Part shown: piece after piece, positions 27,401 to 43,946 of the stretch | Layout of the letters: each line of letters opens with the position of its first letter | Numbering within the stretch: position 1 is the first letter of the stretch | Assembly (NCBI GenBank): GCA_001544655.2 | Contig: FCOD02000015.1 | Coordinates: 1 to 64,000, forward strand | Direction of reading: 5' to 3' | From: Caballeronia turbans | Lineage (GTDB): Bacteria > Pseudomonadota > Gammaproteobacteria > Burkholderiales > Burkholderiaceae | DNA length: 64,000 nucleotides | Notes under the pieces: model-generated | Told to the model about the DNA's origin: nothing | Databases searched by the model: none | The model's input: the letters and a program-made list of their open reading frames with translations, nothing else | Made by a program: the position numbers and the translations under genes

Positions 27401-27542
27401 CCTTCGCTCTCCTAACCGTGTGGTTCAAGGGCGGGCTGTGCCCGCTGTCCCGTTGCGGCTTGTCGCCGTTACTGCGCTTTATCCCGGTTCCCGATGGCCC
27501 TGCTTCGCACCGTCCGGGAGGCGTCTTGTTGATCGCCCGTTA

Positions 27543-27560
27543 TGTTCCATATATGGATCA
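27543..27560. promoter_or_regulatory. IclR-type operator on the porin side
   Basis: TGTTCC-ATATAT-GGATCA: identical left arm and spacer length to the operator at 27828-27845, with one mismatch in the right arm. The inner part TCCATATATGGA is itself a perfect palindrome. It lies just downstream of the predicted porin transcription start, a position suited to repression. Confidence 0.65.
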
Positions 27561-27577
27561 ACGTACTGCCTATGGAA

Positions 27578-27607
27578 AGTATAGTGAGGTTTGCAGCGCC
27601 AAAACAA
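27578..27607 (-). promoter_or_regulatory. Candidate porin promoter
   Basis: Reading leftward: -35 TTGTTT (27602-27607), an 18-bp spacer, and -10 TATACT (27578-27583). The IclR-type operator starts about 18 bp downstream of the -10 box. Confidence 0.5.
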
Positions 27608-27804
27608 TAAATTTTCAGACGACCTCGGGTAGACCCTTAAGGCACGTCGGATGCGTCTCGTTCGTAGCAAAAAGAGCTTACGAATCAATGTCGAACGGAC
27701 GTTTATACGTCAGATCAGACGTGAGACGAACGCCTGAACGACCAGCAATCTAGTGTTTTCACCTAGATATCCACTTTTTTATTTTCCCGGGCTCAGACCA
27801 CTCC

Positions 27805-27810
27805 TATAAT
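27805..27810 (+). promoter_or_regulatory. -10 box of the ring-hydroxylating operon
   Basis: A consensus TATAAT 62 bp before the first gene of the operon. The -35 region at 17-bp spacing (TTTTCC, 27782-27787) is poor. The operator at 27828-27845 begins 18 bp downstream, the same geometry as on the porin side. Confidence 0.55.
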
Positions 27811-27827
27811 GCCCATACACGAACTGC

Positions 27828-27845
27828 TGTTCCTTTAGTGGAACA
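27828..27845. promoter_or_regulatory. IclR-type operator on the ring-hydroxylating operon side
   Basis: TGTTCC-TTTAGT-GGAACA, perfect 6-bp arms with a 6-bp centre, just past the predicted transcription start and 26 bp before the first ATG. Arm sequence and spacing fit an IclR-family dimer site. Two IclR genes flank or lie inside the island. Confidence 0.7.
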
Positions 27846-27871
27846 CAGACGAACCAGAGGAAGGGTGAAAG

Positions 27872-28189
27872 ATGTCTGAACAATGGCGCTGCGCCGGGCA
27901 TGCCGGCGATCTGTCGGAAGACGCACCGATCGAATTCAAGCTCGACGACGGCGCGGAGATCGGTATCTACAAAGTGGGCGACGAGCTGTATGCGCTCGAG
28001 AACGTCTGCCCGCACGCATACGCGCTGCTGACGCAGGGTTTCGTCGATGGCGACACCGTCGAATGTCCGCTGCACGAAGCGGTGTTTCACATCCCCACGG
28101 GCAAATGCCTGAAAGAGCCCGGCGGCCGCGACCTGAAGACGTATTCGGTGCGCCTCGCCGGCGAGGAAATCCAGATCAAGGTGGCGTGA
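27872..28189 (+). CDS. Rieske [2Fe-2S] ferredoxin of a ring-hydroxylating oxygenase
   Basis: A 105-residue electron carrier. The Rieske cluster ligands are C46-x-H48 (NVCPHAY) and C65-x2-H68 (ECPLHEA), with the spacing of biphenyl/naphthalene dioxygenase ferredoxins. AGAGGAAGGG precedes the ATG. It would pass electrons from the FAD reductase (38351-39568) to the oxygenase alpha subunit (28515-29576). It is the first gene of the operon; the next starts 1 bp after its stop. Confidence 0.93.
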   Translation: MSEQWRCAGHAGDLSEDAPIEFKLDDGAEIGIYKVGDELYALENVCPHAYALLTQGFVDGDTVECPLHEAVFHIPTGKCLKEPGGRDLKTYSVRLAGEEIQIKVA

Positions 28190-28190
28190 C

Positions 28191-28499
28191 ATGGAAAAAG
28201 TCGTGAACTTCAACCCGCATCTCAAGCCGTGGCTCGCGCCGCAGCCGAACAACGTCGCCGGCAAGGGCGTGATCGAGAAGCCGGGTCAGACCGAGAACTT
28301 CATCTGGCAAACGCGCAAGGCCGAGCCGACGCAATACGAAAACGACTTCGGCGACGCGCTCGAACGCGTCTTCGAAGCGGGCGCGCTGGAACTGGAGCAA
28401 GTGGTCGCGGGCTTGAACAAGGACGGCTTTCGCACGCCGGAAGGCACGACGTGGACCGCCGAGCGCCTCGCCACCGAGCTGCGCACGCTCGCCGATTAA
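28191..28499 (+). CDS. Recombinase-like helix-turn-helix small protein
   Basis: A 102-residue protein. Residues 1-50 (FNPHLKPWLAPQPNNVAGKG, then ENFIWQTRKAEPTQYENDF) have no known domain. The C-terminal part (LEQVVAGLNKDGFRTPEGTTWTAERL) resembles the short helix-turn-helix segment of serine recombinases, where the motif reads LN..G..TP.G..W. Genes of this type are found next to Rieske oxygenase genes and carry the name recombinase-like HTH protein. It lacks any catalytic serine domain. It lies tightly between the ferredoxin and the alpha subunit, so a role as an oxygenase assembly or small subunit is as likely as DNA binding. Confidence 0.75.
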   Translation: MEKVVNFNPHLKPWLAPQPNNVAGKGVIEKPGQTENFIWQTRKAEPTQYENDFGDALERVFEAGALELEQVVAGLNKDGFRTPEGTTWTAERLATELRTLAD

Positions 28500-28514
28500 A
28501 GAAGGAGCATTCCC

Positions 28515-29576
28515 ATGACGTCCTCTCAGCAGACAACCGTCGCCGTCGATCCCGTTCAGGCTTATCTCGATCGCGGCTTGCGCAATTACTGGTATCCCGT
28601 CGCGCCTGGCTGGCAAGTGGCGAACGCGCCCATCGGCCTGACGCGCCTCGGCGATCAGATCGTCCTCTGGCGCGACAACGAAGGCAAAGTGCACGCGCTC
28701 GAAGACCGCTGCCCGCATCGCGGCGCGCGCCTGTCGCTCGGCTGGAATCTCGGCGGCAGCGTCGCGTGCTGGTATCACGGCATCGAAGTCGATGGCAGCG
28801 GCACCGTGCAGAAAGTGCCCGCCGTGTCGGCATGCCCGCTCGAAGGCCAGAAGTGCGTGAAGTCGTATCCGGTCGAAGAACGCGCGGGCGCGATCTTCCT
28901 CTGGTTCGGCGACGACGCCAACAAGGAACCCGCGCCGCTCGTGCTTCCCGAAGAACTCGTCGGCGATGAATACGCGAGCTTCCTTTGCATGTCCCACTGG
29001 AAGTGCAATTACCAGTACGCGATCGACAACGTGATGGACCCGATGCACGGCGCTTATCTGCACGCGACATCGCACTCGATGGCCGAAGGCGACAAGCAGG
29101 CCGACATGCGCGTGCGCAAGACCGAAACCGGCCTCATGTTCGAGAAGGTGAATCAGCGCGACGTGAACTTCGACTGGGTCGAACTGGGCGAAACCGGCTG
29201 CCTGTGGATGCGCCTCGCGATTCCGTACAAGAAGAAGTTCGGTCCGGGCGGCAACTTCGGGATCATCGGCTTCGCCACGCCCGTCGATGAAGACAACTGC
29301 CAGGTCTATTTCTGGCGCACGCGCAAGGTCTCGGGATGGCAACGCGATGCGTGGCGTTTCCTGTATCGCAATCGTCTCGAAGGCCTGCACTGGGCCGTGC
29401 TGGAACAAGACCGCTACGTGCTCGAAAGCCTCGCGCCGAACGCGCGCGATCACGAGTTCCTCTATCAGCACGATGTCGGCATGACGCGTGTGCGCCGCAT
29501 GCTGAAGCAACGTGCGCAGCAGCATCTCGCCGCCCTCGACGCGCTTGCGAAGAACACGGAGCACGTTCATGCGTGA
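28515..29576 (+). CDS. Ring-hydroxylating oxygenase alpha subunit
   Basis: A 353-residue catalytic subunit. The Rieske domain has C66-x-H68 (CPHRG) and C85-x2-H88 (CWYHG). The mononuclear iron site shows D171-N172 and D175, then H178 and H183 in DNVMDPMHGAYLHATSH, the pattern of phthalate-type and related single-component oxygenases. No beta subunit gene is present, which also fits an alpha-only oxygenase. It should add O2 to an aromatic ring or demethylate. GAAGGAGCA precedes the ATG. The following SDR overlaps it by 8 bp. Confidence 0.93.
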   Translation: MTSSQQTTVAVDPVQAYLDRGLRNYWYPVAPGWQVANAPIGLTRLGDQIVLWRDNEGKVHALEDRCPHRGARLSLGWNLGGSVACWYHGIEVDGSGTVQKVPAVSACPLEGQKCVKSYPVEERAGAIFLWFGDDANKEPAPLVLPEELVGDEYASFLCMSHWKCNYQYAIDNVMDPMHGAYLHATSHSMAEGDKQADMRVRKTETGLMFEKVNQRDVNFDWVELGETGCLWMRLAIPYKKKFGPGGNFGIIGFATPVDEDNCQVYFWRTRKVSGWQRDAWRFLYRNRLEGLHWAVLEQDRYVLESLAPNARDHEFLYQHDVGMTRVRRMLKQRAQQHLAALDALAKNTEHVHA

Positions 29577-30312
29577 TGCGCTCGACGGCCGCCGCGTGCT
29601 GGTCACAGGCGGCGCTCGCGGACTCGGCGCGGCGTTCGTCCGGGCGCTCGTTGAGCGCGGCGCGCACGTCGCATTCGGGGATGTGCTGCATGCGGAAGGC
29701 GAGGCGCTCGCGCGTGAACTGCCCGAAGCGCACTTCTTCCCGCTCGATCTGAATGAGCCGCAGAGCATCTCCGCATTCGTCGATGCAAGCGTGAAAGCGC
29801 TGGGCGGCCTCGACGGCCTCATCAACAACGCCGCGATCACGAATTCGGGCGGCAAGTCCGCCGATGAACTCACGCCGCAAACGTGGGACGCCGTGATGAA
29901 CGTCAACGTGCGCGGGTCGTGGCTCATGAGCGTCGCGTGCCTGCCGCATCTGAAGGCATCGGGGCGCGGCGCGATCGTGAACATCGCATCGGATACGGCG
30001 TTGTGGGGCGCGCCGAAGCTGCTCGCCTACGTCGCGAGCAAGGGCGCCGTGATCGCGATGACGCGTTCGCTCGCCCGCGAGTTCGGCACGAGCAACGTGA
30101 CCGTCAACGCGATCGCGCCCGGCCTCACCGAAGTGGAAGCCACCGCCTACGTGCCCGCCGAGCGCCACGAGTACTACCTCAAAGGCCGCGCACTGACGCG
30201 CGCGCAAACGTCCGACGACGTGAACGGCCCCGTGCTGTTCCTGCTCTCGGATGCGGCGCGCTTCGTGACGGGCCAGTTGCTGCCGGTCAACGGCGGCTTC
30301 GTGATGAATTGA
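29569..30312 (+). CDS. SDR-family dehydrogenase, cis-diol or alcohol type
   Basis: A 247-residue SDR. Motifs: TGGARGLG near residue 14, NNAAI near 84, S in NIASDTALWG and Y-x3-K in YVASKGA, so the active site is complete. The end is VTGQLLPVNGGFVMN. In this operon position, directly after the oxygenase alpha subunit with overlapping frames, it is a good candidate for the NAD-dependent rearomatising step, although most cis-diol dehydrogenases are somewhat longer. The start ATG 29569 lies inside the end of the alpha-subunit gene. Confidence 0.88.
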   Translation: MRDALDGRRVLVTGGARGLGAAFVRALVERGAHVAFGDVLHAEGEALARELPEAHFFPLDLNEPQSISAFVDASVKALGGLDGLINNAAITNSGGKSADELTPQTWDAVMNVNVRGSWLMSVACLPHLKASGRGAIVNIASDTALWGAPKLLAYVASKGAVIAMTRSLAREFGTSNVTVNAIAPGLTEVEATAYVPAERHEYYLKGRALTRAQTSDDVNGPVLFLLSDAARFVTGQLLPVNGGFVMN

Positions 30313-30341
30313 TTCGCTCTATACAGAACCTGGAGAAAGCA

Positions 30342-30869
30342 ATGGCAGATGCCGACATCGAACGTAAATCGTGGGATCAGCCCGCCGACGCGAGCTTCGA
30401 GCAATGGATGAACTCGCGCGTCGCGCGGCTCGAGACGCGCCGCTACGACTGGGACGCGCTCAAGTTCCAGGCCGATTACGACCCGAAGTATCGCCGCGCG
30501 CAGATGCGCTATGTGGGCACGGGCGGCACGGGCGTCGCGAAGGACATGAACACCGTCCCCGCAGGCAGCTTCACGTTTTCGACGATGGTCATTCCCGCCG
30601 GCAACATCGGGCCGAGCCATATTCATATCGACGTCGAAGAGATTTTCTTCGTGCTGCGCGGAAAGATGAAGGTGATCTGCGAGAAGGACGGACAGACGTG
30701 GGAAGCCGTGCTCGGCGAGCGCGATCTCATCTCCGTGCCGCCTGGCGTGTATCGCACGGAAATCAACATCGGCGACGAAGACGCGCTGATGTGCGTGATG
30801 CTCGGCGCGTCGAAGCCCATCACGCCGACGTATCCGCCCGATTCGCCCTTGGCCAAGCTGAAGCGCTGA
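30342..30869 (+). CDS. Cupin-domain protein
   Basis: A 175-residue protein with TGGAGAAAGC upstream. A helical N-terminal part (SWDQPADASFEQWMNSR, RYDWDALKFQADYDPKYR) precedes a single cupin barrel from about residue 80, with metal ligands in GPSHIHIDVEEIFFVLRGKM (two His and a Glu) and a later SVPPGVYRTEIN. It may be a small dioxygenase, an isomerase or a sensor. Its place between the SDR and the hydrolase argues for a catalytic step on a pathway intermediate, but nothing in the sequence fixes it. Confidence 0.82.
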   Translation: MADADIERKSWDQPADASFEQWMNSRVARLETRRYDWDALKFQADYDPKYRRAQMRYVGTGGTGVAKDMNTVPAGSFTFSTMVIPAGNIGPSHIHIDVEEIFFVLRGKMKVICEKDGQTWEAVLGERDLISVPPGVYRTEINIGDEDALMCVMLGASKPITPTYPPDSPLAKLKR

Positions 30870-30876
30870 GACTGCG

Positions 30877-31737
30877 ATGAACATCGAGACGCTCGCGCGC
30901 TTTCCGGACATGCACATCGATACCGCTCAGGGCATCACGGGTTATCGCGAGGCAGGTGCGTCGCATCTGCGCACCCTGCCCGTCGTGCTGCTGCACGGGA
31001 TCGGCTCCGGTGCGGCGTCGTGGGTTCGGCAACTCGACGCGCTCGGCGCGACGCGTCGCGTGCTCGCGTGGGATGCGCCGGGTTATGGCGTGTCCACTCG
31101 CGTCGCGAATGAATCGCCGGTTGCGGCCGATTATGCGCACGCGTTGTCCGCGTGGCTCGATGCGCTCGGCGTGAATCGCTGCGTGCTCGTCGGCCATTCG
31201 CTCGGCGCGATCATCGCGGGTTCGTTCGCTGCACATGCGCCGGAGCGTGTGGCGGGCTTGCTGCTGATTTCGCCCGCTGCAGGTTACGGCGCGGCCTCGA
31301 AGCAAGTGCGTGAATCGAAGCGCGATGCACGATTGAAGATGCTCGACGAACTCGGCGCGCAAGGACTCGCACGCGAGCGCAGCGCGAACATGGTTTCGCA
31401 ATATGCCGATGACACCGCGCGCGAATGGGTCCGCTGGAACATGGCGCGCATCGTCCCCGAAGGCTACGCGCAAGCGACGCATCTGCTCGCGAACGCGGAC
31501 CTCGCAGCGGATATCGCGCGCTTTCATGGACGCATCGCGGTGGCGGTGGGCGCGGACGACGCGATCACGCCGCCCGCTGCGTGCGCGCCGATCGCGCAGG
31601 CCGCGCACGTCGGCCTGCAGGTCATTCCGCGTGCCGGCCACGCGGGTTATGTCGAATCTCCCGCCGTCCATACCGCGCTGATCGACTCGTTTTGCCAGGG
31701 CATCGAATGTCACATGAAAGACGGAGTACCGCAATGA
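30877..31737 (+). CDS. Alpha/beta hydrolase, meta-cleavage-product type
   Basis: A 286-residue hydrolase. The nucleophile is S108 in VLVGHSLGAII; D and H of the triad are likely in GADDAITPP and RAGHAGYVESP. The oxyanion segment is LLHGIGSGAASW near residue 40. Homology is to enzymes like BphD and DmpD that split the carbon chain left by extradiol ring opening, as well as to lactonases and esterases. It follows the cupin gene by 7 bp, and its stop overlaps the start of the second IclR gene. Confidence 0.85.
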   Translation: MNIETLARFPDMHIDTAQGITGYREAGASHLRTLPVVLLHGIGSGAASWVRQLDALGATRRVLAWDAPGYGVSTRVANESPVAADYAHALSAWLDALGVNRCVLVGHSLGAIIAGSFAAHAPERVAGLLLISPAAGYGAASKQVRESKRDARLKMLDELGAQGLARERSANMVSQYADDTAREWVRWNMARIVPEGYAQATHLLANADLAADIARFHGRIAVAVGADDAITPPAACAPIAQAAHVGLQVIPRAGHAGYVESPAVHTALIDSFCQGIECHMKDGVPQ

Positions 31738-32594
31738 CATCCATTGCCACGGAAGAAGCCGATAAAGGCGAACCGACTTACATCGTGCCGGGGCTCGAAC
31801 GCGGACTGAAGATCCTCACCGAGTTCTCGCCGCGCGAGCCCGTGCTCGGCGCGCCGGAACTGTCGCGGCGCCTCGGCATTCCGCGCACGACGGTGTTCCG
31901 GCTGCTTCAGACGCTCGAATCGCTCGGCTTTCTGGAGCGCGCGGACAAGGACCGCAACTACCGCCTGGGCGTGGCCGTATTGCGCCTCGGCTTCGAATAC
32001 CTGAGCTCGCTCGAACTGACCGATCTCGGCCTGCCGATCATCGAGGCGCTGCGCGATGCGACCGGTCTCACGAGTCACATCCTGATTCGCGATGGCCGCG
32101 ATGTCGTCTTCGTCGCCAAGGCGCAGAGTCACGCGCCGATCTTCAGTTCGGTGAAGGTGAACGTCGGCACGCGCCTGCCGGCGCATGCGACGACGCACGG
32201 TCACGTTCTGATGGGCGATCTGTCGCTCGATGAATTGCGCGCGCTGTATCCCGAACAGCATCTCGAGCGCTTCACGAAGTCGACGCCCGAAACCGTGGAA
32301 GAACTGTTCGAGCGCGTGAAGGAAGACGCCGAACGCGGCTACGCGACGAGCCAATCGTCGTTCGAGCGCGGCATTTCGGTCGTCACCGCGCCGGTTCGCA
32401 ACGACACGGGACGCATCGTCGCCGTCATCACGACGACGATCCCGCGTCCGGAAATCGATGCCGCATTGCTCGAAAGCGGCCTCATCGACAAGGTACGCGA
32501 GGCCGCCGATGCGCTCTCGCTGCGTCTCAACTATCGCCCGGCCGCGCGCGCAAGTGCATCGAGCCGATACATGAAGTCTCTGGGGTTGCAATGA
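31734..32594 (+). CDS. IclR-family transcriptional regulator (copy 2)
   Basis: A 286-residue regulator with the wHTH at about residues 18-80 (VPGLERGLKILTEFSPREPV, LGAPELSRRLGIPRTTVFRLL) and an IclR effector domain. It is a close paralogue of the regulator at 25347-26228, including the long identical stretch VVFVAKAQSH. It starts with ATGA overlapping the hydrolase stop, and its stop overlaps the next SDR start, so it is produced with the operon it is likely to control. Embedding the regulator in the operon creates feedback. Both copies may compete for the same operators. Confidence 0.92.
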   Translation: MTSIATEEADKGEPTYIVPGLERGLKILTEFSPREPVLGAPELSRRLGIPRTTVFRLLQTLESLGFLERADKDRNYRLGVAVLRLGFEYLSSLELTDLGLPIIEALRDATGLTSHILIRDGRDVVFVAKAQSHAPIFSSVKVNVGTRLPAHATTHGHVLMGDLSLDELRALYPEQHLERFTKSTPETVEELFERVKEDAERGYATSQSSFERGISVVTAPVRNDTGRIVAVITTTIPRPEIDAALLESGLIDKVREAADALSLRLNYRPAARASASSRYMKSLGLQ

Positions 32595-33400
32595 TTCAGA
32601 TCGATCTTTCAGGGCAGGTCGCCGTTGTCACCGGCGGTTCGTCGGGCATCGGCTTCGCGACGGCGCGCCTGTTTTTGCAGGCGGGCGCATCGGTCGCCAT
32701 TTGCGGACGCGACGCCGAACGCCTCGAAGCCGCGCAAGCCGCGCTCGCGACAGAATTCCCGCAAGCGCAATTGCTCGCTGCACGTTGCAATGTGCTCGAT
32801 GAGAACCACGTGAACGCCTTCGCCTCACGCATCGAGGCGCGTTTCGGCCGCGTCGACATGCTCGTGAACAACGCGGGACAAGGCCGCGTGTCCACCTTCG
32901 CCGATACGGCCGACGACGCCTGGCGCGACGAACTGGAGCTGAAGTACTTCAGCATCATCCGCCCGACGCGCGCCTTTCTGCCGATGCTCGAAGACGCGCC
33001 CGCGCCCGCGATCGTCTGCGTGAATTCGCTGCTCGCGTTGCAGCCGGAACCGCACATGGTCGCGACCTCGTCGGCGCGCGCAGGCGTGCTGAGCCTCGTG
33101 AAATCGCTCGCGACGGAACTCGCGCCGCAACGCATCCGCGTGAATTCGATTCTGATCGGCATCGTCGAATCGGGGCAGTGGAAGCGGCGTTACCAGGATT
33201 ATCTCCAGCAAGCACAAGACCCGCGCCAGAGCTGGCAGGAATGGACCGGCGAGCTCGCGCGCAAGAAAAACATTCCGCTCGGCCGCTTCGGCCTGCCCGA
33301 AGAAGCGGCTCAGGCGCTCTTCTATCTCGCAACAACGCTGTCGTCCTACACGACCGGCAGCCATATCGATGTTTCCGGAGGCTTTGCTCGTCATGTCTGA
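32591..33400 (+). CDS. SDR-family protein with altered active site
   Basis: A 269-residue SDR. NAD-binding motif TGGSSGIG at 14-21 and NNAG at 93-96 are intact, as is S146 (CVNSLLAL). Thirteen residues further on, where Tyr is expected, stands T159, and four later R163 replaces Lys (ATSSARAG). The usual S-Y-K triad is thus broken, a substitution seen in some SDR subfamilies, so it may bind cofactor without classic catalysis or use another mechanism. It overlaps both neighbours (IclR upstream and ThDP enzyme downstream), showing tight coupling. Confidence 0.85.
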   Translation: MIQIDLSGQVAVVTGGSSGIGFATARLFLQAGASVAICGRDAERLEAAQAALATEFPQAQLLAARCNVLDENHVNAFASRIEARFGRVDMLVNNAGQGRVSTFADTADDAWRDELELKYFSIIRPTRAFLPMLEDAPAPAIVCVNSLLALQPEPHMVATSSARAGVLSLVKSLATELAPQRIRVNSILIGIVESGQWKRRYQDYLQQAQDPRQSWQEWTGELARKKNIPLGRFGLPEEAAQALFYLATTLSSYTTGSHIDVSGGFARHV

Positions 33401-35060
33401 AAAAACCACGGTCGGCGAACTGATCGCCGCGTTTCTCGAACAATGCGGCGTGCGCACGGCGTTCGGCGTGATCTCGATTCACAACATGCCGATTCTCGAT
33501 GCGATCGGCCGCCGCGGCAATATCCGCTATGTGGGCGCACGCGGCGAAGCGGGCGCGTTGAACATGGCCGACGGCCTCGCGCGTGTCTCGGGCGAACTGG
33601 GCGTCGCATTCACGTCGACGGGCACCGCCGCCGGCAACGCGGCCGGCGCAATGGTCGAAGCCCTGACCGCGGGCACGGCGCTGCTGCACATCACGGGGCA
33701 GATCGAAACCGAATATCTCGATCGGGATCTCGCGTATATCCACGAAGCGCCCGATCAACTGACGATGCTGCAATCCATCTCGAAGGCCGCGTTCCGCGTG
33801 CGCACGGTCGAAACCGCACTGCCGACGATCCGCGAAGCCGTGCGCGTCGCGCTGACTGCGCCGGCCGGTCCGGTGAGCGTCGAGATTCCGATCGACATCC
33901 AGGCCGCCGCAATCGAATGGCCCGCCGATCTGGCCGCGCCGCACGTCGGCACGCTCACGCACGACAGCCTGCGCGTGAAGCAGCTCGCCGATGCGTTGAC
34001 GAACGCCAGGCGCCCGCTGCTGTGGCTCGGCGGCGGCACGCGTCATGCGCGCAGCGCGGTCGAGCGGCTGGTCAAGCTCGGCTTCGGCGTGGTGACGAGC
34101 GTGCAGGGGCGCGGCGTGCTGCCCGAAGATCATCCGGCGACGCTCGGCGCGTTCAACGTGCATCCGTCGGTCGAAGCGTTCTACAAGACGTGCGATGCGC
34201 TCGTCGTCGTCGGCTCCCGTCTGCGGGGCAACGAAACGCTGAAGTACAAGCTCGCGCTGCCGCAACCGCTCTATCGCATCGACGCCGATGCGCTCGCCGA
34301 CAGCCGCGGCTATCGCAACGAACTGTTCGTGCATGGCGATGCATCGCGCGTGCTGGACGAACTCGCGACGCTGCTCGAAGGCCGCATCCGTGTCGATCCG
34401 GCGTTCGCGGGCGATCTCGCCGCCGCGCGCGAAACGGCGGTCGCGGAAGTATCGAAGGGGCTGGGACCGTACAAGCGCCTCGTCGATTCCCTGCAACGCG
34501 CGGTCGGCCGCGATTACAACTGGGTGCGCGACGTCACGATCTCGAACAGCACGTGGGGCAATCGCCTGCTCAAGATCTTCAATCCGCGCGCGGGCGTGCA
34601 TGCGCTCGGCGGCGGCATCGGCCAGGGCATGCAGATGGCGATCGGCGCGGCGCTTTCGGGCGCGGCGAAAAAGACCGTCGCGCTCGTCGGCGATGGCGGA
34701 CTCATGGTCAATGTCGGCGAACTCGCCACGGCCGTGCAGGAAAAAGCCAACGTGATGATCGTGCTGATGAACGATCAATGCTATGGCGTCATCCGCAACA
34801 TTCAGGACGCGCAGTACGGCGGACGCCGCATGTTCGTCGATCTGCATCAGCCGGATTTCGCGCAGTTCTGCGCGAGCCTCGGACTCACGCATCGCCGCAT
34901 CACGTCGCTCAATCAGGCCGATGACATCGTGCGCGAAGGGCTCGCCATCGACGGTCCGGTGCTCATCGAAGTGGACATGCTGTCGGTCGGCTCGTTCGCG
35001 ACCGCGTTCGCCGGCCCGCCGGTGAAGAGGGAAGAACCGAAGGAGCCGGAATATGCGTGA
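33393..35060 (+). CDS. ThDP-dependent 2-oxoacid enzyme (IlvB-like)
   Basis: A 555-residue member of the acetolactate synthase/benzoylformate decarboxylase superfamily. The catalytic glutamate is in [19 protein letters not shown] near residue 52; the Mg-ThDP motif is [13 protein letters not shown] near 435, with the Asn in MNDQCYG. CCGGAGG lies upstream of ATG 33393. No regulatory-subunit gene is present, so biosynthetic acetolactate synthesis is unlikely. In this operon a decarboxylation or carboligation of an aryl or alkyl 2-oxoacid is the best guess, with the neighbouring aldehyde dehydrogenase taking the aldehyde. Confidence 0.87.
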
Positions 35061-35877
35061 TCCACGTCACGCGCCGCATGCGCTCGATATCGCGATGATC
35101 GGCTTCGGCGCGATCGGCTCGGCGGTGTTTCAGGCGCTCGAAAACGATCCGCTCGTGCGCATCTCGCATGTGATCGTGCCGCAGCGCGATCGCGCGCACG
35201 TGCGCTCGGTGCTCGGCGACCGGGTCGATGTCGTCTCGCACGTCGAGTCGCTCGCGAGCCATCCCGAGTTCGCGCTCGAATGCGCGGGACACGCGGCGCT
35301 CGTCGATCACGTCGTGCCGCTTTTGAAGTCGGGCACGGATTGCGCGGTCGCGTCGATCGGCGCGCTGTCCGAAGCCGGCCTGCTCGATGCGCTCTCCCGC
35401 GCCGCCGATGAAGGCGCGGCCACGATCACGCTGTTGTCGGGCGCGATCGGCGGCGTCGATGCGCTCGCCGCGGCGAAGGAAGGCGGCCTCGACGACGTGC
35501 AGTACACCGGCCGCAAACCGCCGCTCGGCTGGCTCGGCACGCCCGCCGAAAGCGTGTGCGATCTGAAGTCGCTGACCGCGGAACAGGTCATTTTCGAAGG
35601 GACCGCGCGCGACGCCGCACGGCTCTATCCGAAGAATGCGAACGTCGCGGCGACCATCGCGCTAGCCGGCCTCGGCCTCGACGGCACGCGCGTGAGACTG
35701 ATCGCCGATCCGGCTGTCGAGCGCAACGTGCATCGCATCGTCGCGCGCGGCGCGTTCGGCGAGATGTCGCTCGAAATGTGCGGCAAGCCGCTGCCGTCGA
35801 ATCCCAAGACATCCGCGCTCACCGCGTTCAGCGCGATCCGTGCGTTGCGCAATCGCGCCGCGCGCTGCGTCATCTGA
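35053..35877 (+). CDS. L-aspartate dehydrogenase-like (NadX family) oxidoreductase
   Basis: A 274-residue protein that overlaps the end of the ThDP gene by 8 bp. The Rossmann motif is [19 protein letters not shown] at about 13-31; CAGHAAL near 79 and the HR pair in VERNVHRI near 226 match the family, where that His is catalytic. NadX forms iminoaspartate from aspartate for NAD synthesis, but this copy sits in a catabolic operon. It may instead oxidise an amino-acid-like pathway intermediate to a 2-oxoacid, the substrate type of the preceding ThDP enzyme. Confidence 0.85.
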
Positions 35878-35891
35878 AGGAGTTTTGAACG

Positions 35892-37382
35892 ATGAATCAT
35901 CCCGACACTTCGCTCGTGAGCTCCGGCGATATCTTTCTCGGCGGCGAATGGCGCAAAGGACGCGGCAATCCGTACGCGAGCATCTATCCCGCCGATCAGA
36001 CCGTCAACACGGAAATCAGCACGGCGAATGCCGACGATGCGCGCGAAGCCGTCGAGATCGCGGATCGCGCCTGGAGGAAGGCGGACTGGGCCGGCCTGAA
36101 GCCGCATCAGCGGGCGGCCGTTCTGCATCGCATCGCCGGCCTGATCGAAGCGCGTCACGAAGCGCTCGCGCACTTGCAGCGGCGCGACAACGGCAAGCCG
36201 GTCAGCGAAACGCGCGCCCTCGTCACGAGCGCGGCGAACACGTTCCGCTACTTCGCGTCGTGCCTCGAAACGCTCGAAGAAGAACTCACGCCCTCGCGCG
36301 GCGACTATCTGACGATGAGCGTGCACGAGCCGCTCGGCGTCGTCGCGGCGATCACGCCGTGGAATTCGCCGATCGCTTCCGACGCGCAGAAGCTCGCGCC
36401 CGCGCTCGCCGCCGGCAACGCCGTCGTGCTGAAGCCCGCCGAAGTGACGCCGCTCGCGTCGCTGGCGCTTGCGCGCATCTGCGAGGAAGCGGGGGTGCCC
36501 AAGGGCGTCGTCAGTGTGTTGCCGGGCAAGGGCTCCGTGATCGGCGATGCACTCGTGCGCCATCCGCTCGTGAAGAACGTCGCGTTCACGGGCGGCACGG
36601 AAGTCGGTCGCGGCATCGCGCGGCTCGCCGCGGAAAAGCTGATGCCCGTATCGCTCGAACTCGGCGGCAAGTCGCCGACCATCGTCTGCGCCGATGCCGA
36701 TCTCGATCACGCGGTCAATGGCGTGCTGTACGGCATCTTCAGTTCGTCGGGTGAATCGTGCATCGCGGGTTCGCGGCTTTTCGTCGAACGCAAGGTGTAT
36801 GGCGAATTCATGGCGCGGCTCGTCGATGGCGCGCGCAAGCTGCGCGTCGGCGACCCGGCGCGCGAGAACACGCAGATGGGCCCGCTCATCACGGGGCAGC
36901 ATCGCGACAGCATCGAGCGCTTCGTCGCGCTCGGTCTCGAAGAAGGCGGCACGCTCCTGTGCGGCGGCGAACGCCCGACGGGCGATGGCCGCGAAAAAGG
37001 CTTCTTCTACCTGCCGACGATCATCGAAGGTCTCACGAACGACGCGCGCATGTGTCAGGAGGAGATCTTCGGACCAGTGCTCGCCGCCCTGCCCTTCGAC
37101 GACGAAGCCGCGCTTCTCGAACAGGCGAACGACAGCGTGTTCGGCCTCGCGGCAGGCATCTGGACGCGCGACTACAAGCGTGCATGGAACATGGCGCGTG
37201 CATTGAACGCCGGCACGGTCTGGATCAACACCTACAAGCAGTTTTCCATTTCGACGCCCTTCGGCGGCTGGAAAGACAGCGGCATGGGACGCGAGAAAGG
37301 CCGCCTGGGCCTGCGCGAATACATGCAGCAGAAGAGTCTCTACTGGGGCTTGAACGACGCCCCGCTGCCGTGGGCGAACTGA
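35892..37382 (+). CDS. NAD(P)-dependent aldehyde dehydrogenase
   Basis: A 496-residue enzyme with all ALDH landmarks: ITPWNSP near 154-160, the general base E256 in SLELGGKSP, nucleophile C290 in SSGESCIAG, and the end motif EEIFGPVL followed by FGGWKDSG. Close in type to betaine, succinate-semialdehyde or aromatic aldehyde dehydrogenases; the substrate cannot be read from the sequence. GAAGGAGTT precedes the ATG. In context it would oxidise the aldehyde made by the ThDP decarboxylase. Confidence 0.92.
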   Translation: MNHPDTSLVSSGDIFLGGEWRKGRGNPYASIYPADQTVNTEISTANADDAREAVEIADRAWRKADWAGLKPHQRAAVLHRIAGLIEARHEALAHLQRRDNGKPVSETRALVTSAANTFRYFASCLETLEEELTPSRGDYLTMSVHEPLGVVAAITPWNSPIASDAQKLAPALAAGNAVVLKPAEVTPLASLALARICEEAGVPKGVVSVLPGKGSVIGDALVRHPLVKNVAFTGGTEVGRGIARLAAEKLMPVSLELGGKSPTIVCADADLDHAVNGVLYGIFSSSGESCIAGSRLFVERKVYGEFMARLVDGARKLRVGDPARENTQMGPLITGQHRDSIERFVALGLEEGGTLLCGGERPTGDGREKGFFYLPTIIEGLTNDARMCQEEIFGPVLAALPFDDEAALLEQANDSVFGLAAGIWTRDYKRAWNMARALNAGTVWINTYKQFSISTPFGGWKDSGMGREKGRLGLREYMQQKSLYWGLNDAPLPWAN

Positions 37383-37392
37383 AGGAGTTGCC

Positions 37393-38358
37393 ATGACGAT
37401 TCTTGGCATTGAACGCATCACTTACGGCGTGACGGACCTCGACACCTGCCGGCGCTTCTTCGCCGACTGGGGCCTGAAGGAAGTCGCGCATGATGAAACC
37501 CGCGCGCGTTTCGAAACCCTGAACGGCTGCGAAGTGCTGCTCGCCTTTGCCGATGACCCCGCGCTTGCGCCCGCCTTCGAAGCGGGTCCGACGCTGCGCG
37601 AAGTCACGTGGGCCGTCGCGACGCGCGAAGAACTCGACGCACTGCGCCAACGCTTCGCGGGCCAGCCCGGCCACTTCGAAGCGGATGACGCAATTGGCTG
37701 CATCGACCCGAACGGCATGGCGATACGCGTCGAAGTCACGAAGAAACGCGACATCGACGTGAAGGGCTCGCCCTCGAACGTGTGGGGACAAACCTTGCGC
37801 GTCGATACGCCGAGTCCTGTCTACGAGCGCGCGGAGCCGGTGGAAGTGGGGCATGTCGTGTTCTTCACGAACTGCGTCGCGGAGCAGGAGAAGTTCTATC
37901 ACGAACTGCTCGGCTTCGAGACCTCGGATCGTTATCCGGGCCGCGGCGCGTTCATGCGCTGCGCGCCGCACGGCGGTCATCACGATCTGTTTCTTCTGCA
38001 ATTGCCCGATGGCAAGCGCGGCCTGAATCACGTCGCGTTCACCGTGCGCGATATCCACGAGGTCTTCGGCGGCGGCCTGCACATCAGCCGCTGCGGCTGG
38101 ACGACGCAGCTCGGGCCGGGACGTCATCCGGTTTCGTCGGCGTATTTCTGGTACTTCAAGAATCCGGCGGGCGGTCTCATCGAGTATTACGCCGATGAAG
38201 ACGTACTCACGCCCGAATGGCAACCGCGCGATTTCGAGCCTGGCCCGACCGTGTTCGCGGAGTGGGCCGTCGATGGCGGTCTCGACGGCAACACGCGCCG
38301 CCAGAAAGACGCGAAGGCGCCGGAAGGCAAGTTCATGACGGAGCGCAAAAATGGCTGA
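37393..38358 (+). CDS. VOC-family extradiol dioxygenase-like enzyme
   Basis: A 321-residue two-module VOC protein of the length of catechol 2,3-dioxygenases. The three Fe(II) ligands of the C-terminal module are present: H154 (VGHVVFF), H213 (LNHVAFTV) and E264 (GLIEYYAD). The N-terminal module (GIERITYGVTDLDTCRRFFA) lacks a full ligand set, as is normal. It most likely opens a catechol-type ring between the second and third carbons. It is preceded by GAAGGAGTTGCC and overlaps the reductase gene by 8 bp. Confidence 0.86.
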   Translation: MTILGIERITYGVTDLDTCRRFFADWGLKEVAHDETRARFETLNGCEVLLAFADDPALAPAFEAGPTLREVTWAVATREELDALRQRFAGQPGHFEADDAIGCIDPNGMAIRVEVTKKRDIDVKGSPSNVWGQTLRVDTPSPVYERAEPVEVGHVVFFTNCVAEQEKFYHELLGFETSDRYPGRGAFMRCAPHGGHHDLFLLQLPDGKRGLNHVAFTVRDIHEVFGGGLHISRCGWTTQLGPGRHPVSSAYFWYFKNPAGGLIEYYADEDVLTPEWQPRDFEPGPTVFAEWAVDGGLDGNTRRQKDAKAPEGKFMTERKNG

Positions 38359-39568
38359 TCTCCAAACGGTCGTGGTGATCGGCGGCGGCCAGGCGGCGGG
38401 ATGGATTGTGAAGACGCTGCGCAAGGAAGGCTTCGATGGCCGCCTCGTGATGGTCGCCGACGAGATTCATCTTCCCTATGAGCGGCCGCCGCTGTCGAAG
38501 GCCGTGCTCGCAGGCGATGCCGATATCGACACCGTGCGGCTCGTCGATCACGACGCGTTCGCCGCACTGAACGTCGAAGCGTGGCAGCCGGAATGCGCGG
38601 AATCGATCGATCGCGACGCGCGCATCGTGCGCACCGCGAGCGGACGCGAAGTGCACTACGACCGCCTCGTCATCGCGACCGGCGGGGCGGCGCGGCGGCT
38701 GCCGGCCTCGCTCGTGCAGACCTCGCATCTCGCCTATCTGCGCACGCTCGACGATGCAATGCTCATCGGCAAGCGCCTGCGCGAAAGCCATAGCAAGCGC
38801 TTGCTCGTGATCGGCGGCGGATGGATCGGCCTGGAAGTCGCGGCGACTGCGAAGAAGCTCGGCGTCGATGTCACGGTCGTCGAAGGCGCGCCGCGTCTGT
38901 GCGGACGTTCCGTGCCTGAAAGCGTGTCTGATTTCCTGTTGAAGCTGCATCGCGATAACGGCGTCGATGTGCGGCTGAATGCATCGCTCGTGTCGCTCGA
39001 CGACTATGGCGACGGCGTGCGCGCGCAACTCGCCGACGGCACGACCGTAGAGGCCGATTTCGCGGTCGCGGGCATCGGACTGACGCCGCATACGGGAATC
39101 GCGGAGCGCGCGGGCATCGACGTGAACGACGGCATCGTCGTCGATGAATTCGGTGCGACGAACGATGCGCACGTGTTCGCGTGCGGCGATGTCGCCAATC
39201 ATCCGAACGCGTGGCTCAAGCGCCGCGTGCGCCTCGAATCATGGGCGAACGCGCAGAACCAGGCAATCGCGACGGCGCGCGCGGTGCTCGGCGTGCGCAC
39301 GCCGTATGCCGAGATTCCGTGGTTCTGGTCGGATCAGTACGACGTGAACCTGCAGATTCTCGGCGACGTTCCGCCGGGCGCCGTGCCCATCGTGCGCGGC
39401 GATCTGGACGCGCGTCGCGCATCGCTGTTCTTCTTGGATGGCGATGCATTGCGCGGCGTGATCGCGATCAACGCGACGCGCGATCTGAAGGTCGCGAAGA
39501 AATGGATGAGCCAGGGGCGCGCGGTCGATATCGCGGCGCTCGCGGACACGGCGAAGGCACTCGCATAA
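38351..39568 (+). CDS. FAD-dependent ferredoxin reductase of the oxygenase system
   Basis: A 405-residue reductase of the BphA4/rubredoxin reductase family. FAD motif VVVIGGGQAAGWIVKTL at the N-terminus, the ERPPLSK segment near residue 45, NADH motif LLVIGGGWIGLEVAATAKK near 150, and the FACGDVANHP FAD segment near 275. It would take electrons from NADH and reduce the Rieske ferredoxin encoded first in the operon. This completes a three-component oxygenase system (reductase, ferredoxin and alpha subunit). Confidence 0.92.
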   Translation: MADLQTVVVIGGGQAAGWIVKTLRKEGFDGRLVMVADEIHLPYERPPLSKAVLAGDADIDTVRLVDHDAFAALNVEAWQPECAESIDRDARIVRTASGREVHYDRLVIATGGAARRLPASLVQTSHLAYLRTLDDAMLIGKRLRESHSKRLLVIGGGWIGLEVAATAKKLGVDVTVVEGAPRLCGRSVPESVSDFLLKLHRDNGVDVRLNASLVSLDDYGDGVRAQLADGTTVEADFAVAGIGLTPHTGIAERAGIDVNDGIVVDEFGATNDAHVFACGDVANHPNAWLKRRVRLESWANAQNQAIATARAVLGVRTPYAEIPWFWSDQYDVNLQILGDVPPGAVPIVRGDLDARRASLFFLDGDALRGVIAINATRDLKVAKKWMSQGRAVDIAALADTAKALA

Positions 39569-39587
39569 CACACGGACGGGAGCAGGC

Positions 39588-41015
39588 ATGAGGAGCATGG
39601 GCAATACGGCGGTTCAACACGGCGGCACCGCCACGACAGTCGCCGACGCGGCCACTGCCGCTCACGCGGTCACGAAGGGATCGATCATCGCGCGCATCGA
39701 GCGGCTGCCCGCCAACGCGATGCAGGTGCGCGCACGTATTCTGATCGGCGCGGCAACTTTCTTCGATGGCTTCGATGTCATCGTCATCGCGGCGACGCTG
39801 CCGCTGCTCATCCAGAAGTGGGGGCTGACGCCGGGGCAGGTCGGCTTTCTGATCGCGTCGGGATCGATCGGGCAACTGATCGGCGCGTTCCTCTTCCCGT
39901 CGCTCGCGGAACGTTATGGACGCGTGCGTTCCATCGCGTGGAGCTCGGGCATCATCGGCCTGACGAGCATCGCGTGCGGCTTCGCGCCTTCGTTCGCGGT
40001 ATTCGTCGCGTTACGGATCGTGCAGGGACTCGGGCTTGGCGGCGAATTGCCCGTCGCGGCGACTTACATCAACGAGATCACGCGTGCCCATGGGCGCGGC
40101 CGTTTCGTGCTGCTCTACGAGATCGTGTTCCCGATCGGCCTGCTCGCATCGAACGCGCTCGGCGCATGGGTCGTGCCGCGCTTCGGCTGGGAAGCGATGT
40201 ACTTCATCGGAGGCGGGCCGCTCGTGCTCTTCTTCCTGCTGCGCGCGCTGGTGCCGGAATCGCCGCGCTGGCTCGGCGAACGCGGCCGCATGAGCGAAGC
40301 CGGCGACGCGCTCTGCGCATTCGAAGCCACCGTGAAGCAGCCGCTGCCGCCGCTCGGCAATCTCGCCGATTTCGAAGCGATGGCGAACCGTCATCCGAAG
40401 CGCCGCCGCCTGGATCTGATCGGACCGGCGTATCTCAAGCGCACGATCGCGGTCGCGCTCTTGTGGATGACGTGCGGCGTGCTCCAGTACGGCCTCTCGA
40501 CGTGGCTGCCGACGATCTACAAGACCGTCTATCACGCGCCGTTGCAACTCGCGCTGAATCTGGCGGTGGCGGCTTCCGTGCTCGGCGTGATCGGCTCGCT
40601 GACGTGCGCGCTGATCGTAGACAAGGTCGGGCGCAAGCCGGTCATCAACTGGTCATTCGTGTTGTGCGCGGTGTCGCTCGTGTTCGCGGGCGTGTTCGTC
40701 ACGCAGTCGGTGTATGTGGTCGCAACCTTCTGCGCCCTCGCGCTCGGCTTCATGGCATGCGGCTTCATCACCGCTTATGTGTATACGCCCGAGCTTTATC
40801 CGACGAGCATCCGCGCGTTCGGATGCGGCCTCGGCGGTGCATGGCTCAAGATCGCGGCGATCTTCGCGCCGGCGCTCGTCGGCAAGACGCTGATGGGCGG
40901 GAACATGAATGTCGCGTTCTATGCGCTCGCTGTCGTGCCGCTCGTCGCGGCGGTCGCGGTGCATTACATGGGCATCGAAACGAAGGGCAAGGTGCTGGAG
41001 CAGCTTGAAGTGTGA
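39588..41015 (+). CDS. MFS transporter, aromatic acid:H+ symporter family
   Basis: A 475-residue protein with 12 predicted helices and a long polar N-terminus. AAHS features: FFDGFDVIVIAATLPLLI in helix 1 and LAERYGRVRS between helices 2 and 3, followed by LGLGGELPVAATYINE. Members such as PcaK and BenK import aromatic acids. Translation may start at ATG 39588 or at the third codon after it. It is the last gene of the operon and is followed by a terminator at 41025-41060. Together with the porin it would carry the substrate across both membranes. Confidence 0.9.
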   Translation: MRSMGNTAVQHGGTATTVADAATAAHAVTKGSIIARIERLPANAMQVRARILIGAATFFDGFDVIVIAATLPLLIQKWGLTPGQVGFLIASGSIGQLIGAFLFPSLAERYGRVRSIAWSSGIIGLTSIACGFAPSFAVFVALRIVQGLGLGGELPVAATYINEITRAHGRGRFVLLYEIVFPIGLLASNALGAWVVPRFGWEAMYFIGGGPLVLFFLLRALVPESPRWLGERGRMSEAGDALCAFEATVKQPLPPLGNLADFEAMANRHPKRRRLDLIGPAYLKRTIAVALLWMTCGVLQYGLSTWLPTIYKTVYHAPLQLALNLAVAASVLGVIGSLTCALIVDKVGRKPVINWSFVLCAVSLVFAGVFVTQSVYVVATFCALALGFMACGFITAYVYTPELYPTSIRAFGCGLGGAWLKIAAIFAPALVGKTLMGGNMNVAFYALAVVPLVAAVAVHYMGIETKGKVLEQLEV

Positions 41016-41024
41016 TGCTTTGCT

Positions 41025-41060
41025 GTTCAGGGCCGGCGCTTTGTATCGCCGGTCCTGAAC
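41025..41060 (+). terminator. Hairpin terminator after the catabolic operon
   Basis: A 14-bp stem (GTTCAGGGCCGGCG with CGCCGGTCCTGAAC, one G-U pair) around an 8-base loop. It lies between the converging MFS and nucleoside hydrolase genes and probably serves both. Confidence 0.7.
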
Positions 41061-41068
41061 TCCTGGCG

Positions 41069-42187
41069 CTACTGGAATTTGACGGGGACGGGCCGCGTCA
41101 GCAGATCGACATAGAACTTGAAGAATCGATCGTTGTCGTAGCGCGTCACGTAGGTGATCTTCTGCGGCGACGCACCGGCCTGCGGCGCGTCCGGATACAC
41201 CTTCACATGTCCCTGATCCTCGCCGGGCGTCGTGTCGATGTCGAGATACGCGCTCTGCGTCTGCGTCGCGTAAGTCGGATCGAGGAAATAACCGATCGTC
41301 AGCGTGTCGTAGATATCGGTGTTCGTCGAGAATGCGCCCGCGTTCGCGATCGCGTAGACCTTCGTCACCGCTGTCTGTCCCGTCGGCGGATTGACGATCT
41401 GGTTGTAGACCGATTCGGTGAGCGGCACGGTGTTGGTCACGTCGAGAGGAATCACTCTCTGCGGGATCGTCGTCTGCAAAAGCGTTCGTACCGCGACGGG
41501 ATCGAACCACCAGTTCAGTTCGCCCACCGCGTTCGCGTTGCCCGGCACGTTCATCGCGCCGCCCATGTAGACGATTCCCTTGATGAGCGGAACGATCTCC
41601 GGTGCTTTGCGCACGGCGGTCGCGAGATTGGTCGGCGGCCCGACTTCGATGATCGTCACCTGGTTCGGATAGCGCTTGACCGTATCGACGATGAAGTCGG
41701 CGGCGCTCTGGCTTTGCAGCTTGGCCGATGTTGCGAAGCCGTCCGGCGGCGCGGTCAGTTGCGACTGGCTGGTCGGCTCGGGACGCATCCATGCGCCGAA
41801 GTAGCCGTTCGGATTCGCGGCCTGCTGCGCGCGAATGCTCGCGACATCGTATTGCAGCGGATAATTCGCGCCGGCATAGACGCCGACCTTGTCCTGCACG
41901 CCCATGCGCTCGACCGCCTTCAGTGCGTCGGCTTCTTCCTGCAGCAGCCAGTCGTTGCCGGTCACGACGCACAGGCCGAGCAGATTGACCTTGCCCTCGC
42001 CCATCAGTTGCGTCGACATGGCGAAGAGCTGGCCGTCGTCGCCCATCGTATTGAAGTCCGAATCGATGATGATCTTCGGCGCGCTGGAAAAGGCGGGTTG
42101 ATTGTCGTCGTCGGAGCCGCCGCAACTGGCGAGCATGGAGGTGATGACAACAGGAAAGATCAGGAATGCCGCGCTGCAACGTCGCAT
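41069..42187 (-). CDS. Lipoprotein nucleoside hydrolase
   Basis: A 372-residue protein with a lipobox (SMLASC near residue 22) and a nucleoside hydrolase domain. The metal site motif normally DxDxxxDD appears as IDSDFNTMGDDGQLFAM at about 41-57, and VIPLDVTNTVPLT, with the fourth calcium ligand region, near 250. It would cleave N-glycosidic bonds of nucleosides outside the inner membrane to salvage ribose and bases. Lipid anchoring is unusual because most of this family are cytosolic. It is a single leftward gene between terminators. Confidence 0.85.
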   Translation of the reverse strand: MRRCSAAFLIFPVVITSMLASCGGSDDDNQPAFSSAPKIIIDSDFNTMGDDGQLFAMSTQLMGEGKVNLLGLCVVTGNDWLLQEEADALKAVERMGVQDKVGVYAGANYPLQYDVASIRAQQAANPNGYFGAWMRPEPTSQSQLTAPPDGFATSAKLQSQSAADFIVDTVKRYPNQVTIIEVGPPTNLATAVRKAPEIVPLIKGIVYMGGAMNVPGNANAVGELNWWFDPVAVRTLLQTTIPQRVIPLDVTNTVPLTESVYNQIVNPPTGQTAVTKVYAIANAGAFSTNTDIYDTLTIGYFLDPTYATQTQSAYLDIDTTPGEDQGHVKVYPDAPQAGASPQKITYVTRYDNDRFFKFYVDLLTRPVPVKFQ

Positions 42188-43901: not shown

Positions 43902-43946
43902 CGATTGTCCTGTCTGGGAAGCTTGTCGGTTGAAGGCTGAAGGAGC

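Follow-up and report, generated by a model that had tools for sequence, protein, structure and literature searches.

What does the gene cluster at positions 27,872–41,015 of Caballeronia turbans contig FCOD02000015.1 (assembly GCA_001544655.2) enable its host to degrade? We analysed the first 64,000 nucleotides of this contig, read on the forward strand (hereafter, the window), for which an earlier note had described a thirteen-gene catabolic operon and suggested that its substrate is aromatic, with a side chain resembling an amino acid or a 2-oxoacid. We propose, with a probability of about 0.5, that the genes serve to break down kynurenate (4-hydroxyquinoline-2-carboxylate) or a closely related quinoline-2-carboxylate, a substrate deduced from the predicted enzymes. 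Hayaishi and Taniuchi reportedly described a 'quinoline pathway' of kynurenate biochemically in the 1960s. We suggest, somewhat more tentatively, that the operon represents the missing bacterial kynurenate genes, including an unrecognised lower pathway through glutarate and iminosuccinate and an HTH_62 partner of the Rieske oxygenase.

The operon comprises 14 genes, all on the forward strand. The first half encodes a Rieske ferredoxin (27,872–28,189), an HTH_62 (recombinase-like helix-turn-helix) protein (28,191–28,499), a Rieske oxygenase alpha subunit (28,515–29,576), a short-chain dehydrogenase/reductase (SDR1, 29,569–30,312), a cupin of 175 aa (30,342–30,869), an alpha/beta hydrolase (30,877–31,737) and an IclR regulator (31,734–32,594). 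The second half continues with another short-chain dehydrogenase/reductase (SDR2, 32,591–33,400), a thiamine diphosphate (ThDP) enzyme (33,393–35,060), an aspartate dehydrogenase (35,053–35,877), an aldehyde dehydrogenase (35,892–37,382), a VOC-family extradiol dioxygenase (37,393–38,358), a flavin adenine dinucleotide (FAD) ferredoxin reductase (38,351–39,568) and a major facilitator superfamily (MFS) transporter (39,588–41,015). Every gene named in the earlier note was thus present, while its count had left out the HTH_62 protein. The 13 junctions measured +1, +15, −8, +29, +7, −4, −4, −8, −8, +14, +10, −8 and +19 bp, with overlaps of 4–8 bp at six of them and a widest gap of 29 bp, which bears out the tight packing claimed before. 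Terminator-like sites between 27,300 and 41,600 were no commoner than in shuffled sequence (10 versus 11.6). Judged from the sequence, the operon is likely one transcription unit.

In the proposed pathway, the MFS transporter would import the substrate, and the ferredoxin, alpha subunit and FAD reductase would act together as a kynurenate 7,8-dioxygenase to form the 7,8-cis-dihydrodiol. SDR1, as a cis-dihydrodiol dehydrogenase, would oxidise this compound to 7,8-dihydroxykynurenate, which the VOC enzyme, as an 8,8a-dioxygenase, would cut between C8 and C8a to leave 4,6-dihydroxypicolinate with a –CH=CH–CO–COOH side chain. The C=C bond of the side chain would be reduced by SDR2, the 2-oxoacid would be decarboxylated by the ThDP enzyme to a formylethyl compound, and the aldehyde dehydrogenase would convert the latter to the carboxyethyl compound, 5-(2-carboxyethyl)-4,6-dihydroxypicolinate. 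The cupin, with a putative role in ring hydration or hydrolysis that is the weakest assignment, and the alpha/beta hydrolase, a candidate amide or beta-diketone C–C hydrolase, would then hydrolyse the pyridone amide and cleave the beta-diketone at C4–C5; the products would be glutarate and iminosuccinate in its enamine form, 2-aminofumarate. Finally, the aspartate dehydrogenase would serve as an iminosuccinate reductase and form L-aspartate, so that the C10 substrate would end as CO2, glutarate (C5) and aspartate (C4). All reactions and their order were inferred from predicted enzyme functions, and the steps of SDR2, of the cupin and hydrolase, and of the aspartate dehydrogenase are the least secure. 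We favour kynurenate because each enzyme family finds one place in this scheme and because the aspartate dehydrogenase, otherwise unexplained, fits the nitrogen fragment. We keep the view of the earlier note that one part of a single catabolic operon attacks the ring and another comprises the decarboxylase and aldehyde dehydrogenase; however, we propose that the 2-oxoacid arises by extradiol ring cleavage instead of belonging to the substrate, and that the NadX-like enzyme acts on the nitrogen fragment of a pyridine-type ring instead of on a side chain.

Judged by families and residues, candidates for a Rieske oxygenase, a dihydrodiol dehydrogenase and an extradiol dioxygenase are encoded together, and the families also provide candidates for a 2-oxoacid decarboxylase and an aldehyde dehydrogenase acting on the side chain. 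The VOC protein has the 2-His-1-Glu site and the acid–base His/Tyr of a type I extradiol dioxygenase: His154, His213 and Glu264 (metal) and His197, His245 and Tyr254 (acid–base) were invariant in 19 sequences, a set that leaves out more divergent copies (27–32% identical), and the enzyme is therefore of the active type. SDR1 keeps the classical Tyr-x3-Lys (Ser141/Tyr154/Lys158). SDR2, of the PRK07062 family, departs from the classical pattern, with Ser-x12-Thr-x3-Arg (Ser146/Thr159/Arg163) instead of Ser-x12-Tyr-x3-Lys; this Thr/Arg site, shared by at least 80% of the 18 sequences compared and by PDB 3LF1/3LF2 (Q9HYA2), fits C=C reduction better than alcohol oxidation. The ThDP enzyme scored 948 bits against a cut-off of 495 for the PRK07064 family. 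The cupin carries Arg138 at a position usually occupied by His in the second cupin motif; its predicted structure had a mean predicted local distance difference test (pLDDT) score of 58 and was not used. The best model for the MFS transporter, the aromatic acid/H+ symport family, was under its cut-off (217 of 419 bits).

The remaining two enzymes bear on the model of the earlier note, in which the NadX-like enzyme deaminates, the ThDP enzyme decarboxylates and the aldehyde dehydrogenase oxidises a side chain of the substrate, while the Rieske, SDR and VOC enzymes attack the ring. The grouping of the ThDP enzyme, aspartate dehydrogenase and aldehyde dehydrogenase in related clusters, like a module, would agree with it. 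However, the NadX-like protein passed the equivalog model for L-aspartate dehydrogenase (NF009826, 508 versus 479 bits), and the conserved C-terminal motifs were seen in an alignment to 2DC1. In addition, the operon holds neither an aldolase nor a hydratase for an ordinary meta-cleavage product, and the hydrolase (triad Ser108/Asp228/His255) carries the motif GHSLGA, not the GNSMGG of meta-cleavage-product hydrolases. We therefore regard a substrate-borne amino-acid or 2-oxoacid side chain as distinctly unlikely. We give hardly any credence to a route of the 2,3-dihydroxyphenylalanine type, in which an aromatic amino acid would undergo ring oxidation, with ring cleavage next to the side chain, hydrolytic release of L-aspartate and its conversion to oxaloacetate by the aspartate dehydrogenase. 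Such a route would account for the Rieske oxygenase, SDR1, VOC enzyme, hydrolase and aspartate dehydrogenase, but it leaves the ThDP enzyme, aldehyde dehydrogenase, SDR2 and cupin without a role, and no hydratase/aldolase pair for 2-hydroxypentadienoate was found in the operon.

The three-component Rieske oxygenase recognised earlier was confirmed, since the ferredoxin, an alpha subunit with its catalytic domain and an FAD reductase with Reductase_C were all found; no beta subunit gene was found in the operon. The alpha subunit is a Rieske/VanA_C protein whose nearest solved relative by sequence is dicamba O-demethylase. This relationship would agree with a VanA/DdmC-like enzyme that removes O- or N-bound methyl groups from a methoxylated or methylated aromatic acid, with meta cleavage as the next step. 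To place the alpha subunit in its context, we used 102 alpha matches (identity at least 45%, coverage at least 85%, fetched loci over 9 kb, mostly the Burkholderiaceae loci). SDR1 lay directly downstream of alpha in 93 of them, a coupling that fits a dihydrodiol and argues against demethylation; the operon also lacks C1 (formaldehyde, tetrahydrofolate) genes, and the aspartate dehydrogenase would be left unexplained, which makes demethylation a very improbable function. The nine matches without adjoining SDR1 were at loci L005, L119, L121, L122 (second alpha), L125, L126, L162, L164 and L168, where the gene after alpha encoded a molybdenum hydroxylase (L119, L121), a RidA or VanB-type protein (L122, L126, L162) or a ThDP enzyme (L168).

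The HTH_62 gene was found no more than 300 bp upstream of alpha in 97/102 matches, the exceptions being L123, L125, L163, L166 and L167; in all of these but L125, it instead precedes genes of an ATP-binding cassette (ABC) transporter. It is the sole match to its family in the genome, versus six other Rieske alpha-like genes (E < 1e-14). The predicted structure (mean pLDDT 70) had three confidently modelled helices at the C-terminus and was disordered at the N-terminus. The latter was highly conserved among 20 sequences, and this combination of disorder and conservation suggests a binding partner. We propose that the HTH_62 protein could be a dedicated partner of the Rieske enzyme, a role as regulator being equally open.

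A second HTH_62-associated alpha class, 54–55% identical and without a dihydrodiol SDR downstream, was observed at L162 (10,776–13,411), L122 (4,774–6,273) and L126. Its partners are RidA-like in L162 and L122 and a PDR/VanB-type reductase in L162 and L126; the RidA of L162 belongs to PF01042, and the stretch beside the second alpha of L122 is 42% identical to it. Moreover, plasmid pNK84 of Caballeronia NK8 (L168, 8,785–18,016) carries, besides a first copy, another partial unit of the pathway, with ferredoxin and HTH_62 (accessions the same as in the first copy), then alpha, ThDP and VOC genes and a three-subunit molybdenum hydroxylase with a CoxG-like protein.

The operon was well conserved. 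Among the best 80 of 581 genome-contig stretches matching the ThDP protein, a non-random set consisting entirely of Burkholderiaceae, 74 loci carried all 14 genes in the same order, indicating that the operon is not a chance grouping. Five of the incomplete loci (L025, L033, L035, L048 and L084) end at contig edges, and the sixth retains remnants of the MFS gene: in Paraburkholderia sp. BCC1885 (L044, 16,284–16,629), this gene is reduced to short pieces after the reductase gene. The synteny across Burkholderiales that the earlier note had put forward as a check therefore exists, but its scope was too narrow, since the full set was also found, reordered, in plasmid-collection records of Klebsiella and Acinetobacter. 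A Novosphingobium record held a reordered set in which the ferredoxin was not listed. In Paracoccus, Nitratireductor and Pseudosulfitobacter, the set includes a cupin protein of greater length together with ABC transporters and a flavodoxin-type partner. Cupriavidus L004 and two related loci, L101 and L102, lacked the ferredoxin and FAD reductase and had a PDR/VanB-type reductase there. Partial or exchanged sets also occurred in plasmid-collection records of Vibrio and Streptomyces. That the gene set is kept together despite reshuffling marks it as one pathway. The Vibrio nigripulchritudo plasmid carries the cupin, hydrolase, VOC, SDR2, ThDP, aspartate dehydrogenase and aldehyde dehydrogenase genes, while the Rieske and SDR1 genes were not found in the 28.5 kb read; this lower-part-only cluster represents the split that the kynurenate model predicts. 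The lower-pathway ThDP gene on the same plasmid (L161, 17,162–18,848) is split over two frames.

At closer range, the nearest ThDP relatives among the listed matches were in eight Caballeronia genomes (95–98% identical), and the enzyme exceeded the family cut-off in 29 of 58 genomes from this genus, so its presence is patchy even there. In samples that counted the genome of the window itself, the cupin (E ≤ 1e-20) was detected in 9/398 genomes drawn from the phylum and the alpha subunit (E ≤ 1e-60) in 10/250 drawn from the order; of 369 genomes drawn from the class, the window's own was the single one with alpha at the latter threshold.

A conserved sequence, CTCCTATAAT (27,801–27,810, forward strand), is the putative −10 region of the operon. 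A consensus scan of 27,300–41,600 returned no sigma-70-like promoter (mean of 2.1 in shuffled sequence) and missed this −10 element too. Downstream of it lies the palindrome TGTTCC-N6-GGAACA (27,828–27,845), a probable IclR operator, whose exact pattern occurs once in the 7.35-Mb assembly. All 77 genome-contig loci that have the ferredoxin gene plus sufficient upstream sequence carry its 16-bp core no more than 150 bp ahead of that gene, and 76 of these 77 also have an IclR gene upstream of it. The pathway of Caballeronia M1242 (L162) is split in two, and each half has the operator in front of it. IclR presumably binds the palindrome and controls the operon. The best model for the embedded IclR regulator was PcaR/PcaU/PobR, under the cut-off (169 of 285 bits), and a second IclR regulator, 73% identical to it over 259 aa, is encoded upstream (25,347–26,228, forward strand). 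A divergent porin gene (26,327–27,400, reverse strand) is possibly co-regulated with the operon. A one-mismatch copy of the palindrome is located between the two (27,543–27,560); this copy is weak alone, since the window holds three matches at up to two mismatches and 14 of 100 shuffles also reach three. Downstream of the operon, two reverse-strand open reading frames (42,348–44,462) resemble the type VI secretion sheath pair.

Several loci hinted at nitrogen heterocycles. Molybdenum hydroxylases often act on N-heteroaromatic compounds, and quinaldate 4-oxidoreductase, such an enzyme, makes kynurenate. A molybdenum hydroxylase gene was present in the unit of the Rieske gene in four loci: L119, L120 and L121, all from one Burkholderiales genus, and the second pNK84 unit. 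In the first three, it directly follows alpha, and the enzyme is 63–65% identical to that of the pNK84 unit. L119 holds a complete four-gene cassette (large, medium and small subunits and a CoxG-like protein) in the order of pNK84, while L120 and L121 end at contig edges. Two-subunit molybdenum hydroxylases were also found downstream of the operon in Cupriavidus L004, behind IclR and TctC genes, and about 370 bp past the MFS gene in Paraburkholderia L056 and L059 (2/80 loci). Only the alpha-adjoining group goes beyond easy chance, because seven genomes had 8–45 matches each. Moreover, the different Rieske gene of Caballeronia M1242 (54–55% identical) lies in the same unit as RidA, a member of an imine/enamine hydrolase family, and carries the operator of the main pathway. 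The molybdenum hydroxylases and this exchanged Rieske unit under the same operator suggest N-heteroaromatic or imine chemistry.

The aspartate dehydrogenase, RidA and molybdenum hydroxylase evidence points to nitrogen heteroaromatics without naming kynurenate. Another N-heteroaromatic acid, such as a pyridine acid, a carboxylated indole or a different hydroxyquinoline, might be degraded by the same logic of Rieske oxygenase, extradiol cleavage, ThDP enzyme and aldehyde dehydrogenase, with the aspartate dehydrogenase acting on an imine. One operon-bearing genus without tryptophan dioxygenase and the absence of kynurenine genes beside the cluster would also agree with such a substrate. However, kynurenate leaves no enzyme gene without a role and its carbon balances exactly, and no other substrate that does so suggested itself; we thus consider another acid of this class unlikely, though it deserves consideration.

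A number of observations weigh against kynurenate as the substrate. Molybdenum hydroxylases are common, with 12 matches in the genome of the window (none on its contig) and 45 in genome G907. In a set of 19 genomes or records that contain the cluster or its alpha gene, tryptophan dioxygenase was found in 11 and kynureninase over the cut-off in 10, never beside the cluster in either case; neither kynurenine aminotransferase nor formamidase was part of this search. The genome of the window has two copies each of tryptophan dioxygenase and kynureninase, which gives it a route from kynurenine to anthranilate as well. In one genus, 11 of 20 genomes have the alpha gene and none of the 20 has tryptophan dioxygenase; kynurenate would need an outside source in this genus, which is probably Klebsiella, from the gene order it has in common with L160. 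With dicamba O-demethylase as the nearest solved relative of alpha by sequence, the oxygenase may instead monohydroxylate or demethylate its substrate. No copy of the operator was detected in the Klebsiella, Acinetobacter, Cupriavidus L004 and L101 or pNK84 clusters, and the Streptomyces stretch showed neither aspartate dehydrogenase nor SDR2. In Novosphingobium resinovorum (L005, 6,068–10,293), a TonB receptor and a GH3 glycosidase gene directly precede the ThDP, aspartate dehydrogenase and aldehyde dehydrogenase genes, which suggests a glycoside as the natural substrate there. Finally, the products reported for kynurenate in pseudomonads are glutamate, alanine and organic acids, not glutarate and aspartate (PMC11354673).

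The tryptophan dioxygenase and kynureninase genes lay on other contigs, except in W03, where they were about 1 Mb away and the dioxygenase match was weak. Hence no genomic link of the cluster to tryptophan-to-kynurenine genes was found; such a link would be a supporting feature only, as kynurenate may come from outside. The kynureninase result does not decide between kynurenate and another N-heteroaromatic acid. In L123 of genome G907 (15,637–16,266), a genuine 3-hydroxyanthranilate 3,4-dioxygenase adjoins a molybdenum hydroxylase and a LigXa-like Rieske gene, upstream of the pathway genes; this proximity means little, because G907 has its 45 molybdenum hydroxylase matches and neither tryptophan dioxygenase nor kynureninase. 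On a Phaeobacter porticola plasmid (L002, 12,001–24,154), a relative of the aspartate dehydrogenase (48%) lies about 7 kb from kynureninase, with a 3-hydroxyanthranilate 3,4-dioxygenase in the region and no remaining operon genes save loose SDR and aldehyde dehydrogenase relatives. After the operon of Pseudosulfitobacter come genes for a CoA-transferase of the CaiB type and for an acyl-CoA dehydrogenase. As glutarate-use genes, they scored 275 of 750 bits (succinate–glutarate CoA-transferase) and 230 of 470 bits (glutaryl-CoA dehydrogenase); this lead was not counted, since the best models are other enzymes and the pair was not listed in the Paracoccus or Nitratireductor stretches.

If the kynurenate assignment holds, it would explain the patchy but widespread occurrence of the operon in Burkholderiaceae, Klebsiella and Acinetobacter, and would give catabolic aspartate dehydrogenases and HTH_62 proteins a physiological role. 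The gene-to-step assignment makes the kynurenate reactions testable enzyme by enzyme. Kynurenate interacts with host receptors such as NMDA, GPR35 and AHR (PMC5610271), which gives kynurenate-removing bacteria a broader interest; soil- and plant-associated bacteria, Klebsiella and Acinetobacter would then be removing a host-signalling tryptophan metabolite.

We compared the operon with known systems. As the earlier note had supposed, no characterised cluster in the open-access literature matched it, and no paper found there gives genes for kynurenate degradation or describes the operon, though such papers may exist outside open access. The SDR2-like atypical site occurs in the short chain oxidoreductase Q9HYA2 (PDB 3LF1/3LF2, 349 bits to SDR2), whose database line names no function. 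This protein presumably comes from Pseudomonas aeruginosa, and strain PAO1 may carry the set at about PA3498–PA3511, in which PA3505 is reported to be an L-aspartate dehydrogenase. Searches of open-access papers for Q9HYA2 and for the locus tags PA3503–PA3511 gave nothing. In the homoprotocatechuate meta pathway, HpaD is the nearest model for the VOC enzyme (71.9 of 321.4 bits) and HpaE the third for the aldehyde dehydrogenase (462.6 of 638.35 bits), after the BADH models (499 and 467 bits), all under cut-off. We rejected this pathway, as these scores are far under cut-off and counterparts of HpaF, HpaG, HpaH and HpaI are absent from the operon. The kynurenine cluster of Acinetobacter baumannii likewise degrades tryptophan products, but by the KynU route to anthranilate; it was dropped as a different locus, and no passage found in that source discusses the present operon (PMC9162365). 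The lumichrome (riboflavin) cluster of Nocardioides simplex resembles the operon in serving N-heteroaromatic catabolism with a Rieske enzyme, a ThDP decarboxylase, an extradiol enzyme and a cupin; it includes a xanthine-oxidase-like hydroxylase, and its cupin LumY is a hydratase (PMC12746152). As described, it differs in an alpha/beta Rieske oxygenase, a two-protein ThDP enzyme (LumK/LumL), a pyrone hydrolase and an aldolase, and was dropped for its other Rieske type and gene set (PMC12746152). For kynurenate, two sources state that pseudomonads metabolise it and cite a title on the enzymatic formation of 7,8-dihydroxykynurenate (PMC11354673, PMC5610271). The predicted chemistry of the operon would match each intermediate reported for the pseudomonad pathway up to 5-(2-carboxyethyl)-4,6-dihydroxypicolinate, while glutarate and aspartate as end products are a proposal made here. 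This kynurenate ('quinoline') pathway of tryptophan degradation is said to go back to Horibata (1961) and to Taniuchi and Hayaishi (1963); its biochemistry has thus been known for some 60 years.

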